Below are positions 5,714-23,024 of a stretch of 46,754 nucleotides of DNA, piece by piece. Source of the DNA: a virus; IMG/VR virus record IMGVR_UViG_3300009702_000034, positions 1 through 46,754 of that record; one strand, 5' to 3'. The translations under genes were made by a program, and so were the position numbers. The stretch's first letter is position 1; each line of letters begins with the position of its first letter. The notes below the pieces were generated by a model, which was not told the origin of the DNA, ran no database searches, and worked only from the letters and a program-made list of their open reading frames with translations.

Positions 5714-7435
5714 ATGCGAGAAGACATTCGAGATATCGCTGAAGAGCGACTTGACGATCTTATTGCTAAGTCTCGCGATATAGCTGAGAGACAAGTCGAG
5801 AGATCGAAGAAATCCCGACGTGAGATGCGGAAGTCTCTCAGTTTCAATCCAATGAGCCCAGTCGACATGACTAGACCTGGGATGTCAGAAAAATTCTACT
5901 GTCCTTACCGCACAGCCGACGATGGCGGATACATGCCGTACTCGGCAAAGTATTGGCTTGACCAGATCAAAACGAATGGTCCGCGTGACAACGCTTCCTA
6001 TCGTGACGGCTATCGCAACCTCTACGAATATTTCAAGAGTGAAGAGAAGATGTCAGACATGCTGAAGAGCAGCATGGAAGAGGTTATCGCTAAGGCCACA
6101 TTCCCAATCGGCACGATCCATCAATACAAGGGAACCAATTTCAAAAAGATGGGGCCAGGAGACTGGCGACCTGTATCGAACGGCAAGTCTAATCCAGTTG
6201 AAGACGATGCGGCAAAGAGACGACAGGCCATTGAGAAAGAACTCATAGCTCGCAAGAATGGCGAGAGTCAAGAGCCAGACTTCTCAAAAAAGAAACAAGA
6301 TGCCGACAATAAGGCTGCTGACCATTCAAAGCGTGAACAAGAGCTTGACCAACGAGAGAAGGAACTCGATCAAAAAGAGCATGATCTAAAGTCCCGTGAA
6401 CTGGAAACGACCGCCAAGAAGAAGGAAGCGAAGGCGAGTGGAGGAGTAAAGAACAGAGAGGGACTGATCTCAAATGGCATGACAGATGAGGCCTACACGA
6501 AGCCAGGCGGCAGCCTAACCATGCCAGAAACCGAAAAATTCATTTCTGAATTCGAAGACGACTTCGAGAAACTTTCCGCACTGGGAGCAGAGTTAAAGAA
6601 GGCTGGAGCTACTGACTATGCAGGTCGTCTTAAGGACCCACACTCCCTTTACGAGAAGATGACCGTTAGGAAACCCGATCGTTCTCTCGACTCGATGACC
6701 GATATCATCGGCCTCAGGGCTCTCACAGACAGCATCGAGGATCAGAAGTCAGTCCTTAAAAAACTGTCATCGTTGTACGATACGGCCGATTTAGAAGAGA
6801 TGGTGGACAAGCCTCGGGATGATGGCTACCGAGCAGTCCATGCTATCATCAAACTTCCCAGCGGCAAGACAGCCGAGGTCCAGATCAAAACCCATCTACA
6901 ACAGATTTTCTCTGGGTTCACTCATGACGCGATCTACAAGGGCAAGCCTGAGATCAAGAATGACAAGGGAACAAGGAAATTTGTTAATGACCTATCGAGC
7001 TATCTCTATAAACTCGACAAGGGCAAAGATCCTGGCGAGCGTCCGCTTGAACCGCCGATCCTCATGGAAAGCGGAATCACATTCCCTTGGGAAGACGTTG
7101 ACCAGTATCTTGGTAGCAGAGTCGCCAAGAAGTCATTCTTCGAGAAGGCTGAGCGTCCGATCAAATATTTCGTGGTCATTCGAGAGAAGGGCACGAAGAA
7201 GAATGTGGACGTTAAGCAATTTGACGACATGAATGGAGCAAAGGCATTTCGCGATAAGTTGAAGCAGTCGGGCCATGAAGGCGAGCTTCCTATCGGATAT
7301 GCGAAGAGCAAAGAAGAGTTTCTACAAACCTTTACTGAGTATCGTCCTCAAGGACCTGGCAGTCGTGGGGGTCAATTCATTGGCTTCTCGTCAGGTGGTC
7401 ATCCTAAATATGCACCTAAGGGAGGCAAGCGATGA
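5714..7435 (+). CDS. Large protein with RelA/SpoT (p)ppGpp synthetase-like domain
   Basis: A 573-residue multidomain protein. Residues 1-45 are basic and helical; 130-155 carry a GTIHQYKG...KMGPGDWRPVS segment; 165-245 form a charged coiled coil (REQELDQREKELDQKEHDLK). Residues 274-432 match the RSH nucleotidyltransferase fold: RLKDPHSLYEKM (305-316), MTDIIGLRAL (328-337, candidate metal-binding Asp), DKPRDDGYRAVHAII (365-379) and AEVQIKTHLQQ (387-397, candidate catalytic Glu). These are the core motifs of alarmone synthetases, which transfer pyrophosphate from ATP to GDP/GTP or, in some toxic members, to tRNA. No hydrolase HD domain is visible. The C-terminus (470-573) ends in a TEYRPQGPGSRGGQFIGF...GGH segment resembling tags in neighbouring proteins. 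The acceptor and target are unknown. Confidence 0.85.
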   Translation: MREDIRDIAEERLDDLIAKSRDIAERQVERSKKSRREMRKSLSFNPMSPVDMTRPGMSEKFYCPYRTADDGGYMPYSAKYWLDQIKTNGPRDNASYRDGYRNLYEYFKSEEKMSDMLKSSMEEVIAKATFPIGTIHQYKGTNFKKMGPGDWRPVSNGKSNPVEDDAAKRRQAIEKELIARKNGESQEPDFSKKKQDADNKAADHSKREQELDQREKELDQKEHDLKSRELETTAKKKEAKASGGVKNREGLISNGMTDEAYTKPGGSLTMPETEKFISEFEDDFEKLSALGAELKKAGATDYAGRLKDPHSLYEKMTVRKPDRSLDSMTDIIGLRALTDSIEDQKSVLKKLSSLYDTADLEEMVDKPRDDGYRAVHAIIKLPSGKTAEVQIKTHLQQIFSGFTHDAIYKGKPEIKNDKGTRKFVNDLSSYLYKLDKGKDPGERPLEPPILMESGITFPWEDVDQYLGSRVAKKSFFEKAERPIKYFVVIREKGTKKNVDVKQFDDMNGAKAFRDKLKQSGHEGELPIGYAKSKEEFLQTFTEYRPQGPGSRGGQFIGFSSGGHPKYAPKGGKR

Positions 7436-8208
7436 AAGACCTACAGATCGCCAGCGAAGTTCCTAAGTCTCTGATCAAGTCGGCGGCAGAGCCTGGATCA
7501 CCATCGAGGCAAGCGACCCTCGACGGACGATTGAATTCAGACCCTGAGTCGAATCATCTTCAGTCGATGATTTCTAAGGGAGAAGACCCCTGGACTTCGG
7601 TCGACCTGAACGAGCATCCGACCATCATCAAGGCGAAGAAGGCTGTCGATAAAGAGATGGAGGATGGCAAGGATAAAGAACCTGACGAGGACGAAGACGA
7701 TAAAGAGATGGACTACGACGAAGAAGACGAGGGCATGGACAAGTCCATCTCTGGCGCTCTCTCCAGACTGACAGGCGAAGACATTTCGAAGGGCTATATC
7801 GGCTTCAAGAAGCTCTCGAAAGAGATCGGCAAAAAGGGCAAGGTCAGTGACCCGGATGCCGTGGCAGCCGCGATCGGCCGCAAGAAGTATGGCAAGGCCG
7901 AGTTTCAACGTATGGCAGCAGCGGGAAGAAAGAAGAAATCCAAGAAGTCGGCTAAGAAGTCTCTCGCTCCGATCTTGGTCGACGCTCTTTCAAAAGCATA
8001 TGGGAGCGAGTGGCTTGCTAACACTCACGGTGAGCAGTTTTCAAGTGACGCTGACAAAGAGGTCCTCAACTATTTAAAGAGTGTTGAGAGTATCGACCTG
8101 CTTAATTCGCCGACTCACAATCCTCCCTATCCCCACAATAATTTTACCGGGAAGTCTCTTGATGCCTGTGAAGGTGACGACAGGTTGACCCTGAAGGCTC
8201 TTGACTAA
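7432..8208 (+). CDS. Hypothetical charged head-cluster protein, 258 aa
   Basis: Overlaps the RSH-domain gene by 4 bases (ATGA). Residues 65-105 are a highly acidic tract (DKEPDEDEDDKEMDYDEEDE). Residues 117-170 contain IGFKKLSKEIGKKGKVSDPD followed by AVAAAIGRKKYGKAEFQRMA, a motif I recognise from other phage structural-cluster proteins. It is followed by a basic stretch (GRKKKSKKSAKKS). The acidic/basic split suggests interaction with DNA or with oppositely charged capsid surfaces, for example as an internal head protein. No enzymatic motif is visible. The stop abuts palindrome copy 3. Confidence 0.7.
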   Translation: MKDLQIASEVPKSLIKSAAEPGSPSRQATLDGRLNSDPESNHLQSMISKGEDPWTSVDLNEHPTIIKAKKAVDKEMEDGKDKEPDEDEDDKEMDYDEEDEGMDKSISGALSRLTGEDISKGYIGFKKLSKEIGKKGKVSDPDAVAAAIGRKKYGKAEFQRMAAAGRKKKSKKSAKKSLAPILVDALSKAYGSEWLANTHGEQFSSDADKEVLNYLKSVESIDLLNSPTHNPPYPHNNFTGKSLDACEGDDRLTLKALD

Positions 8209-8222
8209 TTTCGACGTCGAAA
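8209..8222. repeat. 14-bp palindrome copy 3 (intergenic)
   Basis: Perfect TTTCGACGTCGAAA beginning immediately after the TAA stop at 8206-8208, and followed by CTGGAGGACACC and ATG. The GGAGG ribosome-binding site starts three bases after the palindrome. Confidence 0.95.
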
Positions 8223-10798: not shown

Positions 10799-11049
10799 GA
10801 ATCAGAATTGAAAAAGACGAAGGCGAGGATATCTCAAAGGCTCTCGTTGAGATCGGAGACCATCACGGTCTCGATGTGGTGGTCAAGGCGAGGAAGGTCC
10901 GCAACTCTGTCTACACTGCCGAGAAGCCAGCAGTCGCTCCTAGAAAGTTTATCCTGCCAGCAGCGAACTCAATGTTCGATCACTGGGATTCTGCCTTCAA
11001 GAAAATGATCGACGACATAAAGTCAGATATTGAGAAGGTGCTCAAATGA
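10795..11049 (+). CDS. Small hypothetical protein, 84 aa
   Basis: Starts at TTG 10795, overlapping the portal stop, and ends overlapping the ATG of the Nudix gene. It contains DISKALVEIGDHHGLDVVVKARKV and a C-terminal amphipathic helix (WDSAFKKMIDDIKSDIEKVLK). No family is recognised. Translational coupling on both sides indicates expression with portal and the Nudix fusion. Confidence 0.65.
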   Translation: MRIRIEKDEGEDISKALVEIGDHHGLDVVVKARKVRNSVYTAEKPAVAPRKFILPAANSMFDHWDSAFKKMIDDIKSDIEKVLK

Positions 11050-13019
11050 CGATTGAGGCAGAGGTCGCGTCTATAGCTGTCATGACGAATGACGGCAAAC
11101 TTCTTATGGGCAAGAGAAAAGACAACGGGAAGTGGACGCTTCCCGGTGGTCACTTAGAAGAGGGCGAGACTCCACATGACGGAGCACTTCGAGAGCTTTA
11201 CGAAGAGGCTGGCATCCAAGCATCTGGCCTCTATCCGATCTGTTCCGAGCCGGTCACGACTTTCACAGGTCGCAATCTCATTATTCATGCCTTCCAATGC
11301 GTGACACCCGATGAGAGCAAGATCACCATCAAGAATGATCCAGACGAAGAAGTAGAGAGATGGCAGTGGGTCGATGTGAAGGATGGCCTACCGAAAGAGA
11401 TAGAAGAGAATCTTCATAGTCCGAAGAACGTCGTTCTCAGGGCCATAGGGCTCCAAAAGGCTGACCCACTCTTTATCGACCTTATGAAGGCTGACAGGAT
11501 CGGTCATAAGTACATCCGCAAGTACAGGCGCGGCGGGAAGTGGGTCTATATCTACCATGAGCCAGATGCTCATCCGAGAGAGATCCCAGAAGAAGCAGTC
11601 AACAAGATCCATCGCGCCGCCGAGCTAGGTCATAAGCCAGCCAAGAAACTCGTCGAGTCGATTGAAGAGCACTCACCTGAAAAACTGAAGCTCCTGATCA
11701 GAGCACACGAACTCGGCCATAAACCAGCGACAGACTATTTGAGGTCTCTCGGGATCAACCCTGACAACAAGAAGACTCTCGATGAGTTGATCATGCCTCG
11801 CGGGCTTGCAACGGAAGACTTGCCTGAGAAGTACAGGAATTTCGATCCGCAAAAGCTCTCTCGCGACATGGAGAAAACAAAAGACGACCGTAGAAAAAAG
11901 ATGGACGAAGAGTACTCCCGGCGTGAACGAGCGCAACAGGCAAGGGAGATAGCCGAGAGAGAACTCTCTGGTTCGATGGCCAATTACATCCGCTCTATAT
12001 CAAACCAGACGATCTCGACAGAGACAGTCATTGAGTTGCAAAAGTTCTTCACTAAGGCATTTGGCTCACGGGCTGATGGAAAGTCGTTGAGAGCAGAGGA
12101 CTTCCCATACAATTTCGAAGAACATGGAGTCACGGTCAAGATAGTTGATCTTAGAGTCGGCAGAGACTCGGTAAAGATGCGGCTCGCTGCTTATGATGCA
12201 GATGGCAATCTTATGACTGGAAGAGAGGGCAATAGCACCCCTGGACGTGGCTGGACTCGGAGATGGATACTTAAGGAGGATGGTTCGGTGACCATCAGTA
12301 ACGACCTTCTTTTGATCAAGCCGGAAGCGAGGAATACGGTCAAATTGGGTGCGCTGATCAATAAGAATCAAGTAAAGATGCTGAAGGAGTTTTCTCCGCA
12401 AGGTCGTATTGAGGTTCATGCCAACTGTGACGTAGGCGGATACAACTGGGCCAACCAGGGATTTAAATTCTCCGACGAAGATGACCTCAGTTACATGAGG
12501 CGTAAATTCAAAGAGTTTTGTGCCGAGCATGGCGTAAATCTGACCGCTAGTGATTTGAAAAAGTTCAAGCTCCCATGCCATTTTTCTTCGTTCGACCCAG
12601 GTGTCTACGTAGAGGCGGATATCAATGGACAGACGGAGAAGATCCACCTCGGCAAGGCGTTCCTTCTTAAGAAGGACTGGTATGGGACCATGGAAATGGA
12701 CGAGATGAATGGTGACAACCCAGCCTATCGTTTCTTCGAGGACTATCGACAGATGCGTCGAGAGACTTGGAAGAAGCTAGAGCCTGAGTTCCAGGAGCTG
12801 GTCGAGAAATATCGAGAGCGACAAGAGAGTGGTGGATCTACTCAAGGTCAGCCGCCATTGCCAGGCCCCACCCGTCTGCCAAGGGGATATCGAGATTGGG
12901 ATGCCCGCCGACTGCGTGATTTCTATACGGAGAGTCGAGCTAGTCTGAGTCAGACTCAACGGCGCTTGGTCGTCAGAGCCTATAGGGTCGCCTACGACAG
13001 AGAAAGGAGATCCGCATGA
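11046..13019 (+). CDS. Nudix hydrolase domain fused to a large unknown C-terminal region
   Basis: Residues 1-140 are a Nudix domain with a complete Nudix box: G35, E41, then R49-E50-L-Y-E53-E54-A-G56-I. Nudix enzymes hydrolyse nucleoside diphosphates linked to another group, such as oxidised NTPs, NAD or alarmones. Residues 154-176 are a basic/aromatic patch (HKYIRKYRRGGKWVYIYHE). Residues 185-245 contain two copies of an (A/H)ELGHKPA motif. The remaining 400 residues are unrecognised, with a basic, charged segment near 270-310 and a probable folded domain to 590. A 657-residue Nudix protein is far longer than the usual 130-200. It lies between portal and MuF-type genes, where virion-delivered multidomain proteins are often found. 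Confidence 0.85.
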   Translation: MTIEAEVASIAVMTNDGKLLMGKRKDNGKWTLPGGHLEEGETPHDGALRELYEEAGIQASGLYPICSEPVTTFTGRNLIIHAFQCVTPDESKITIKNDPDEEVERWQWVDVKDGLPKEIEENLHSPKNVVLRAIGLQKADPLFIDLMKADRIGHKYIRKYRRGGKWVYIYHEPDAHPREIPEEAVNKIHRAAELGHKPAKKLVESIEEHSPEKLKLLIRAHELGHKPATDYLRSLGINPDNKKTLDELIMPRGLATEDLPEKYRNFDPQKLSRDMEKTKDDRRKKMDEEYSRRERAQQAREIAERELSGSMANYIRSISNQTISTETVIELQKFFTKAFGSRADGKSLRAEDFPYNFEEHGVTVKIVDLRVGRDSVKMRLAAYDADGNLMTGREGNSTPGRGWTRRWILKEDGSVTISNDLLLIKPEARNTVKLGALINKNQVKMLKEFSPQGRIEVHANCDVGGYNWANQGFKFSDEDDLSYMRRKFKEFCAEHGVNLTASDLKKFKLPCHFSSFDPGVYVEADINGQTEKIHLGKAFLLKKDWYGTMEMDEMNGDNPAYRFFEDYRQMRRETWKKLEPEFQELVEKYRERQESGGSTQGQPPLPGPTRLPRGYRDWDARRLRDFYTESRASLSQTQRRLVVRAYRVAYDRERRSA

Positions 13020-20973: not shown

Positions 20974-21750
20974 ATGGCCGACGCAGCAAACATCCGCCCT
21001 CGCAGCGACGAACAGGTCATCGACGCTGACTTCGTCAAGAGCACCTTCTTACATGGCGTGAATTTAAAGACCGACGATGGAGTTGATCTCCCTGATGAAG
21101 CGATCGACTTCTACATTCAGTCGGCAACGAGGTGGGTAGAGCGCGAGCTTAATGTCATCATTCTCCCGACCTCTATATCTAGCGAGTCACATGACTATTA
21201 CTGGGATGACTATGCGAATTTCGCATTCGTAAAGCTCTTAAATTTCCCAGTACGGTCTGTCTCCAAGGTCGCCATACGTTTCCCACTGACAACTGAGCTA
21301 CTAGCATTTGATGATGAATGGTATCGGATTGAGTCCGTCGCCGGTCAGGTCAACCTGATCCCGACTCAAGGGAGCTTCAGCGCGATCCTTATCGGCCAGG
21401 GAGGTTCGTTCCTTCCTCTGCTCTATAGCGGTCGAGACTACGTCCCACACATCATCCAGGTCGACTATGAGGCGGGATTTAAGGATGGGGAAATCCCTGA
21501 GGACATCCTCCATCTCATCGGCATGAAGGCATCAATCGGCCCTCTTAATATCGCAGGTGACCTGATCGCTGGCGCTGGTATCGCAAGCAAGTCAGTATCT
21601 CTCGATGGACTGAGTGAGTCGCTTGGGACAACCTCTTCAGCGACGAATGCCGGCTATGGTGCACGTATCATCCAATACGAGAAGCAGATCAAAGAGACCG
21701 TCTCTTTGTTGAGAAGAAACTACAAGGGCATTGAAATGGTGGTCGCCTAG
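20974..21750 (+). CDS. Head-tail connector (gp6-like adaptor)
   Basis: A 258-residue protein of the HK97 gp6/SPP1 gp15 adaptor type that binds below the portal. Typical features are the start of the domain with DEAIDFYIQSATRWVERELNVII, then a beta insertion (YYWDDYANFAFVKLLNFPVRSVSKVAIRF), FKDGEIPEDILHLIGMKASIGPL, and a long C-terminal helix (IQYEKQIKETVSLLRRNYKG). It is longer than simple adaptors because of the inserted beta portion. The stop codon overlaps the HNH-Mom gene by one base. Confidence 0.8.
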   Translation: MADAANIRPRSDEQVIDADFVKSTFLHGVNLKTDDGVDLPDEAIDFYIQSATRWVERELNVIILPTSISSESHDYYWDDYANFAFVKLLNFPVRSVSKVAIRFPLTTELLAFDDEWYRIESVAGQVNLIPTQGSFSAILIGQGGSFLPLLYSGRDYVPHIIQVDYEAGFKDGEIPEDILHLIGMKASIGPLNIAGDLIAGAGIASKSVSLDGLSESLGTTSSATNAGYGARIIQYEKQIKETVSLLRRNYKGIEMVVA

Positions 21751-23024
21751 TGCTGATCAAGTCTGAAAACTTGTCTGTTGAATTCAGATGTCCTGAATGC
21801 GGCTATCTCGGCAAGTCGTGTAGAGGCCTCGGAAAGCATTTTGCGTGGAAGCATCCAGAGATTGAGAAAGCGGCCCTCTGGGCCCGTGTTTATGGCCTCC
21901 AGCAGACGAAATGTAAGTGTGGCTGTGGGCAGGATACGCCATGGTCTTCGAAGCCAGGCTATGTCGGCTACAACGATTTCATCATGGGTCACAATCTCAA
22001 TACTGATGATCCGTGGAACAAGGGACTCTCCAAGGATACCGATGAGCGTATCTTGAAGAGCGCAGTTTCGACGTCGAAATCGGTCAAGAAAAAGTGGGAA
22101 GAAGGGGACTATGACGATCGTCGATCGAATGCCTCTTCGATGAATAAGAACCAGGGCTGGTTTCCAGAGGGATCAAAGCCATGGAACAAAGGACTCGGCC
22201 ATCCGTCAGTCTACGGTCCTGAGTTCTCCAAGGAACTAAGAAGGACAGTCAGAGAGCTTTTCAGAAACCGCTGCGTAAGGTGTGATGCTGGAGACTCTCT
22301 GGTTGTGCATCATATAGACACCGACAAGACGAACAATGACATCGAGAATCTGATGCTCCTGTGTCGTCGCTGTCACATGAAGATCCACAGCGACATCTCT
22401 AAGTCGAAGGGTCTGGACTATCATGTCGGCCTTGATGTTTCTTCCAGGGTCGCTGGCTTGAAGCTACGCGACTTCCGAGTTGAGCTTATCGACTACGCCA
22501 ATGCCAAGAACAAGATAATTAAAAACCATTACACGCATACGTGCCCCAAGCCGAAGTTCTCATTCGGCCTAGTCCATAACGGTTTCTCCTATGGCATAGT
22601 CATCTTCTCCATGCCTTCCAGACAGAACATCGCCGCATCCCTGGGATATGAGAATGGGGATGTTTTGGAGCTATCCAGGATGTTCATTCATGAGGGAATG
22701 CCAAAGAATAGTGGAAGCTATCTGATTGCCAAGACGATCAAATATCTGAAGGGCTTCTCTAAGTACAAAGCTGTCGTCACTTATGCTGACTCCACAGAGG
22801 GTCACACAGGGACACTCTATAAGGCCTCCAACTTCCTAGAGGCTGGAGTCTCGCGGGCGAACTATCACTACGAAGACGCTTTCGGGAATAGGTTCCATAA
22901 GAGAGCTGTCTGGAGTCGGGCCAAAAAGTGCGACCGCACCGAGAGAGAGCAGGCGGAAGTTGAAAGGCTTGTCAAGGTAGTCGAGAAAGAGAAGTACCGT
23001 TTCATTTATAGGCTAGCTGCTTAG
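21750..23024 (+). CDS. HNH endonuclease fused to a Mom-like DNA-modification domain
   Basis: A 424-residue fusion. Residues 13-36 are a zinc-finger-like CPEC...H...H segment. Residues 55-92 have CKCGCGQ...GHN and a PWNKGLS motif, repeated at 144-149 (PWNKGL), as in phage HNH homing nucleases. Residues 170-215 form the HNH core: C175-x2-C178, HH (187-188), N195/N200, LCRRCHMKIH (C205, C208, H209, H213). Residues 236-424 match Mom-type GNAT-fold adenine-modification enzymes: FSFGLVHNGFSYGIVIFSMPS, VLELSRMFIHEGMPKNSGSYLIAKTIKYL and the signature TYADSTEGHTGTLYKASNF. Phage Mu Mom converts adenine to a methylcarbamoyl form that blocks restriction. The gene (GTG start) fits between two neck genes with no spacer. 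Palindrome copy 6 is in the linker. Confidence 0.85.
   Translation: MLIKSENLSVEFRCPECGYLGKSCRGLGKHFAWKHPEIEKAALWARVYGLQQTKCKCGCGQDTPWSSKPGYVGYNDFIMGHNLNTDDPWNKGLSKDTDERILKSAVSTSKSVKKKWEEGDYDDRRSNASSMNKNQGWFPEGSKPWNKGLGHPSVYGPEFSKELRRTVRELFRNRCVRCDAGDSLVVHHIDTDKTNNDIENLMLLCRRCHMKIHSDISKSKGLDYHVGLDVSSRVAGLKLRDFRVELIDYANAKNKIIKNHYTHTCPKPKFSFGLVHNGFSYGIVIFSMPSRQNIAASLGYENGDVLELSRMFIHEGMPKNSGSYLIAKTIKYLKGFSKYKAVVTYADSTEGHTGTLYKASNFLEAGVSRANYHYEDAFGNRFHKRAVWSRAKKCDRTEREQAEVERLVKVVEKEKYRFIYRLAA
22066..22079. repeat. 14-bp palindrome copy 6 (inside coding sequence)
   Basis: Perfect TTTCGACGTCGAAA at codons 106-110 of the HNH-Mom gene, read as VSTSKS, between the N-terminal zinc/PWNKG part and the HNH core. 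The 20-base context equals that of copy 5. Confidence 0.95.

Follow-up and report, generated by a model that had tools for sequence, protein, structure and literature searches.

An HNH endonuclease joined to a Mom-family domain in a SPO1-like myovirus: a candidate homing gene that may mark its own DNA

What does a phage protein do that joins a nuclease to a Mom-family domain in one chain, and how did its gene come to lie between two head-neck genes? The window, by which we mean the whole stretch of 46,754 nucleotides of viral DNA analysed here, raises both questions through the following features.

20974..21750, + strand: head-tail adaptor-like gene, the upstream flank; PHROG 772 (annotated tail fiber) and PHROG 442 (head-tail adaptor); syntenic in the viral contigs L238 and L239
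21750..23024, + strand: HNH-Mom fusion gene, 424 aa, GTG start; from frame, Pfam and PHROGs
21789..21854, + strand: N-terminal C2H2-like zinc-finger pattern (C14, C17, H30, H35); from the sequence, Pfam finger matches being below cut-off
21912..21992, + strand: CxCxC...GH segment (C55, C57, C59, H81); from the sequence, possibly a second zinc-binding segment
22011..22025, + strand: PWNKG motif 1, residues 88-92; from the sequence
22179..22193, + strand: PWNKG motif 2, residues 144-148; from the sequence
22272..22391, + strand: HNH nuclease core, residues 175-214; Pfam HNH and HNH_3 above cut-off
22470..23015, + strand: Mom-family GNAT domain, residues 241-422; from Pfam, PHROGs, structure match and residues
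23025..23774, + strand: virion structural (neck-like) gene, the downstream flank; PHROG 1004; next to the adaptor gene in L238 and L239

The fusion gene is one unbroken frame of 424 aa. At its upstream end two codons overlap, TAGTG (21748-21752) holding both the TAG of the preceding gene and its own GTG, and the ATG of the downstream gene comes directly after its stop codon. The first-pass annotation had placed an HNH nuclease and a Mom domain in a single chain, and both are indeed found in this frame above their Pfam cut-offs. On the nuclease side the matches are HNH_3 (E 2e-7) and HNH (E 2e-6), and the residues of the HNH class are present: the cysteine pairs 175/178 and 205/208, HH187-188, N200 and H209/H213. 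The same annotation had described a zinc finger and PWNKG part; two PWNKG motifs and finger-like cysteines are visible, but the finger itself stays below the Pfam cut-off, and the first 170 residues match no family above cut-off. In an AlphaFold model of the whole protein only the Mom half is confident (pLDDT mostly 88-98), with values of about 55-80 in the HNH region and below 50 at the N-terminus. An assembly chimera was rejected as the origin of the fusion, given an independent HNH-Mom fusion in another virus (L020).

Residues 241-422 match Mom (PF25680) with E 4e-35 and 121.7 bits against a curated cut-off of 27.1; the protein also matches the "Mom-like" PHROG 1384 (E 2e-42) and, at the sequence level, the structure of phage Mu Mom, 8bv8 (E 1e-9). 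The proposed Mom signature ADSTEGHTGTLYKASNF is present. The GNAT/Mom fold suggested for this half holds in the model, whose top PDB match is the solved Mu Mom 8bv8 (E 2e-12), with other GNATs at 1e-5. Entry 8bv8 is titled an inactive S124A mutant; comparison of its sequence with the wild-type Mom of L019 identifies S323 of the window protein as the equivalent of Mu Mom S124, and at this position each of the 203 other aligned Mom sequences has S or T. All the family-invariant residues are kept: H260, Y261, E307, R310, D347, H352, G354, Y357 and N361. H260, Y261 and Y357 are invariant in all aligned Moms, R310, E307, D347 and N361 nearly so, and the set is nearly always present in 55 other fused Moms. 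Because S323 and the family-invariant residues are kept, we expect an active enzyme. Fold and residues suggest that it most likely modifies adenine in DNA, although members of the family could conceivably use another acyl-group chemistry or substrate.

The location had been called homing-like, without spacer between a connector and a neck gene, and two related viral contigs strengthen this description. L238 and L239, found by a scan with the adaptor protein, carry the protease, capsid, adaptor and neck genes in the order of the window, and in both the neck gene follows the adaptor gene directly with no gene between them, that is, as an empty site. On the two sides of the site, L238 is about 74% and 65% identical to the window in its flanking DNA, and L239 about 68% and 60%. 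Since the flanking genes are directly adjacent in these relatives, the HNH-Mom gene is cleanly inserted; close relatives have intact flanks and lack it, as is seen with homing genes. The insert matches its surroundings in codon and GC composition and so was not acquired very recently from a genome that differs in this respect. The available fragments of L238 (11.8 kb) and L239 (32.9 kb) yielded no Mom. These two were the only empty-site relatives found, and none was found with the same gene at another place; a scan with the neck protein gave no matches even though L238 and L239 encode a relative, so such scans miss relatives.

The window also contains a perfect 14-bp palindrome, TTTCGACGTCGAAA, in eight exact copies where none is expected, and no copies with one or two mismatches.

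Window 1027, 4786, 8209, 8514, 15831, 22066, 32132 and 40107: copies of the palindrome TTTCGACGTCGAAA

Three of the eight stand just before start codons and are followed by CTGG, and five are within genes. One copy had been placed in the linker of the fusion; it does lie in the gene (22066-22079, codons 106-110), but between the PWNKG motifs and not in the linker between HNH and Mom. L238 has two copies, one of them at the place of window 15831. The data do not support it as a target or regulatory tag of the HNH-Mom gene: the 11.8-kb fragment of L238 contains the palindrome but no Mom, and the 119-kb L020 record contains an HNH-Mom fusion but no palindrome. The palindrome resembles a site bound by a protein dimer, such as an operator, a stoperator or a partition-like site. 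A 657-aa ORF next to the portal gene, at 11046-13019 of the window, matches a portal family weakly and is NUDIX-like at its N-terminus.

Many fused ORFs were returned when IMG/VR and GTDB contigs were scanned with Mom alignments; the sampling is biased to sequences like the window and to the fused profile, and frequencies within it are not abundances. The commonest partners are Vsr/REase-like nucleases with repeated N-terminal motifs. HNH is the partner in the window and in L020, which aligns with the window protein across both HNH and Mom. An endonuclease-VII-type HNH is found in L107, L113, L118 and twice in L156; L100 has a probable GIY-YIG nuclease C-terminal to Mom, from a sub-threshold Pfam match (E 0.003) and visible motifs, and L119 has a weakly labelled PD-(D/E)XK-like partner. 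The complete HNH-Mom architecture was not found among the INPHARED phages and plasmids searched, its relatives occurring in IMG/VR. In a tree of 85 rows, all 39 fused Moms and two unfused rows (L056, L185) form one set (support 99/98), and the fused and unfused labels need 2 changes on it, against 28 in shuffles. A single accidental fusion was rejected in favour of one Mom lineage with changing nuclease partners. In L020, L100 and L151, whose capsid proteins belong to three different PHROGs, the fused gene comes directly downstream of the major capsid gene; elsewhere fused genes adjoin helicase or primase (replication) genes. In records of 140-430 kb as many as eight Mom places occur, and the frames that hold them are almost always 450-660 aa long; one 427-kb record holds copies with different nucleases (L116, L118, L162).

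Conservation is uneven along these proteins. Median identity among 53 of them is 23% in the N-terminal part, 29% in the 140 residues before Mom and 42% in Mom; Mom exceeds the nuclease part in conservation in 96% of pairs, and the N-terminal part in 99.6%. In comparable pairs dN is well below dS in both halves, several dS values being saturated, and the catalytic-type Asp, His, Asp and Lys of the Vsr-like domain are nearly invariant. The high conservation of Mom and the retained catalytic residues suggest a shared enzyme in the Mom part and a target finder in the variable part.

Several other arrangements of Mom-family genes were noted. L072, L073 and L075 are viral contigs that each have three tandem Mom-family genes (about 5950-8210). 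L178, L179 and L180, contigs binned as Lokiarchaeota (RBin_111) which may be viral, carry Vsr-Mom fusions, with Hef-like genes in addition in L179 and L180. A long ORF of Nostoc linckia (L208, 4813-7980) has a Mom-like domain and an apparent DNA cytosine methyltransferase. In Geobacillus phage PK3.6 (L007, 3511-4693), a stand-alone Mom gene begins within a gene that carries an HNH endonuclease annotation; the two may be an unfused pair.

Hef-type homing endonucleases of Campylobacter and Thermus phages can be aligned with the Vsr-Mom protein of L022 over both domains. In profile comparisons the Hef C-terminal domain matches fused Moms with 99% probability (E 5e-20 and 9e-19, each calculated for a single comparison) and stand-alone Moms with 98%. 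Its AlphaFold model (pLDDT 92.6) has Mu Mom as the best PDB match (E 4e-6), followed by other GNATs at 5e-4 and worse, although a Pfam search of the domain did not detect Mom. The His, Glu, Arg, Gly and Tyr are retained in Hef domains, while the Asp and Ser positions vary. From these profile and model comparisons, the C-terminal domain of Hef-type homing endonucleases is predicted to be a diverged Mom fold, which would give an identity to a so far unnamed domain of a widespread family. The Hef of phage U5 is described as a homing endonuclease cleaving nrdB (PMC2988022). The Hef-domain model also matches a BFVD entry annotated as a homing endonuclease of PA5oct, a phage for which Iyer et al. 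(PMC7824862) described five momylating enzymes; part of the Hef-Mom link may therefore be implicit in that study.

What, then, would the window protein do? The reading we favour, though with middling confidence, is a free-standing homing-type endonuclease with an apparently active Mom half, carried by a SPO1-like myovirus between two of its head-neck genes. The variable N-terminal half (zinc segments, PWNKG, HNH) would find and cut a DNA site in related phages that do not have the gene, and repair from the carrier's copy would spread it. The C-terminal Mom-family GNAT half would modify adenine in DNA, and the likeliest purpose of joining the halves is that the mark would shield the carrier's DNA from its own nuclease, perhaps also from host restriction, while unmarked competitor DNA would be cut. 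We infer the cutting, the homing, the modification and, above all, their coupling; protection of the carrier from its own nuclease is plausible. Support for the homing-type reading with an active Mom comes from two domains above their cut-offs, the empty sites, and the Mom fold and residues. Further support comes from the single Mom lineage with its changing nucleases, its capsid- and replication-gene sites and up to eight copies, and from the excess conservation of Mom, dN below dS and the alignment of Vsr-Mom with Hef. Against it count that only two empty-site relatives were found, that the HNH region models poorly and that the Mom half could have a different chemistry or substrate; moreover, a phage would hardly need several Mom copies if every copy did no more than protect its genome as a whole.

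Other explanations share part of this evidence. The protein may be a restriction-modification-like weapon that modifies its own phage's DNA and destroys that of the host or of superinfecting phages, its insertion being ordinary gene shuffling. Both enzymatic halves look conserved, and the jumbo-phage REase-Mom fusions have been read in this way, as protect-and-attack devices (Iyer et al. 2021, PMC7824862). We nevertheless consider it unlikely, because homing genes account better for the numerous diverged copies in a genome, their varying N-terminal parts, their sites beside conserved genes, the cleanly empty site and the relationship to Hef. The reverse possibility is an ordinary homing endonuclease whose Mom-like domain modifies nothing and serves in DNA binding or as a structural element. 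The variation at the Asp and Ser positions of the Hef-type relatives fits a loss of catalysis there, but the catalytic-type residues are nearly invariant in the window protein and 55 other fused Moms, and conservation is highest in Mom, in contrast to what a target-recognition domain would show; we regard this alternative as quite improbable.

It is also conceivable, though decidedly improbable, that Mom is anti-restriction cargo, spread by the nuclease and generally protecting the host phage with no link to the nuclease's target. The many stand-alone Moms of phages and the anti-restriction role of Mu Mom suit this explanation; but cargo would need neither one chain with the nuclease nor a lineage of its own with changing nucleases. 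Returning to the homing-type reading with self-marking, the carrier of a homing gene is normally safe because its cut site has been lost through insertion or sequence change. A nuclease with its own base-marking enzyme would, if real, be a different form of self-protection, linking homing genes with restriction-modification systems. As a tentative and rather doubtful generalization, one Mom lineage, including the diverged Hef domain, might pair generally with homing nucleases of several folds in phages, giving self-immunity by chemical marking and not by disruption of the target on insertion; such proteins would be single-chain hybrids of homing and restriction-modification. The self-protecting selfish gene is a testable idea, and self-marking and the identity of the Hef domain could both be tested with one small protein.

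How far is this new? The first-pass annotation did not know the architecture as a described system. While its HNH-Mom chain, homing-like location, Mom fold and Mom residues stand, this point has to be given up in part: REase-Mom fusions are published (PMC7824862) and Hef shares the layout, so a nuclease-Mom fusion is already known, and what looks new is HNH as the partner of Mom. The open-licence literature searched held no report of an HNH-Mom fusion, nor of the insertion evidence, the exchange of partners in one Mom lineage or the Hef relationship. Among known systems, the jumbo-phage REase-Mom fusions resemble the window protein in having a nuclease and a Mom domain in one phage protein, in their proposed protect-and-attack logic and in their several copies per phage. 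They differ in having a REase fold in place of an HNH with zinc segments and PWNKG motifs, and the window gene belongs to a SPO1-like myovirus, where its insertion is documented by empty-site relatives. The Hef type (phage U5 Hef; Campylobacter phage Hef58/59) shares with it an N-terminal DNA-binding part, a nuclease, a C-terminal Mom/GNAT-fold domain, intergenic location and, as a further likeness, many copies per phage; its nuclease is Vsr/REase-like, whereas that of the window protein is HNH, and its Mom-like domain shows strong divergence, with variation at two catalytic-type positions. Free-standing HNH homing endonucleases of the T4 Mob type likewise combine HNH with zinc segments between conserved genes, but have no Mom domain. 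Phage Mu Mom and the stand-alone phage Mom-like proteins, finally, share the family, fold and invariant residues of the Mom half, and differ in having no nuclease and in lying outside the nuclease-fused lineage in the tree.
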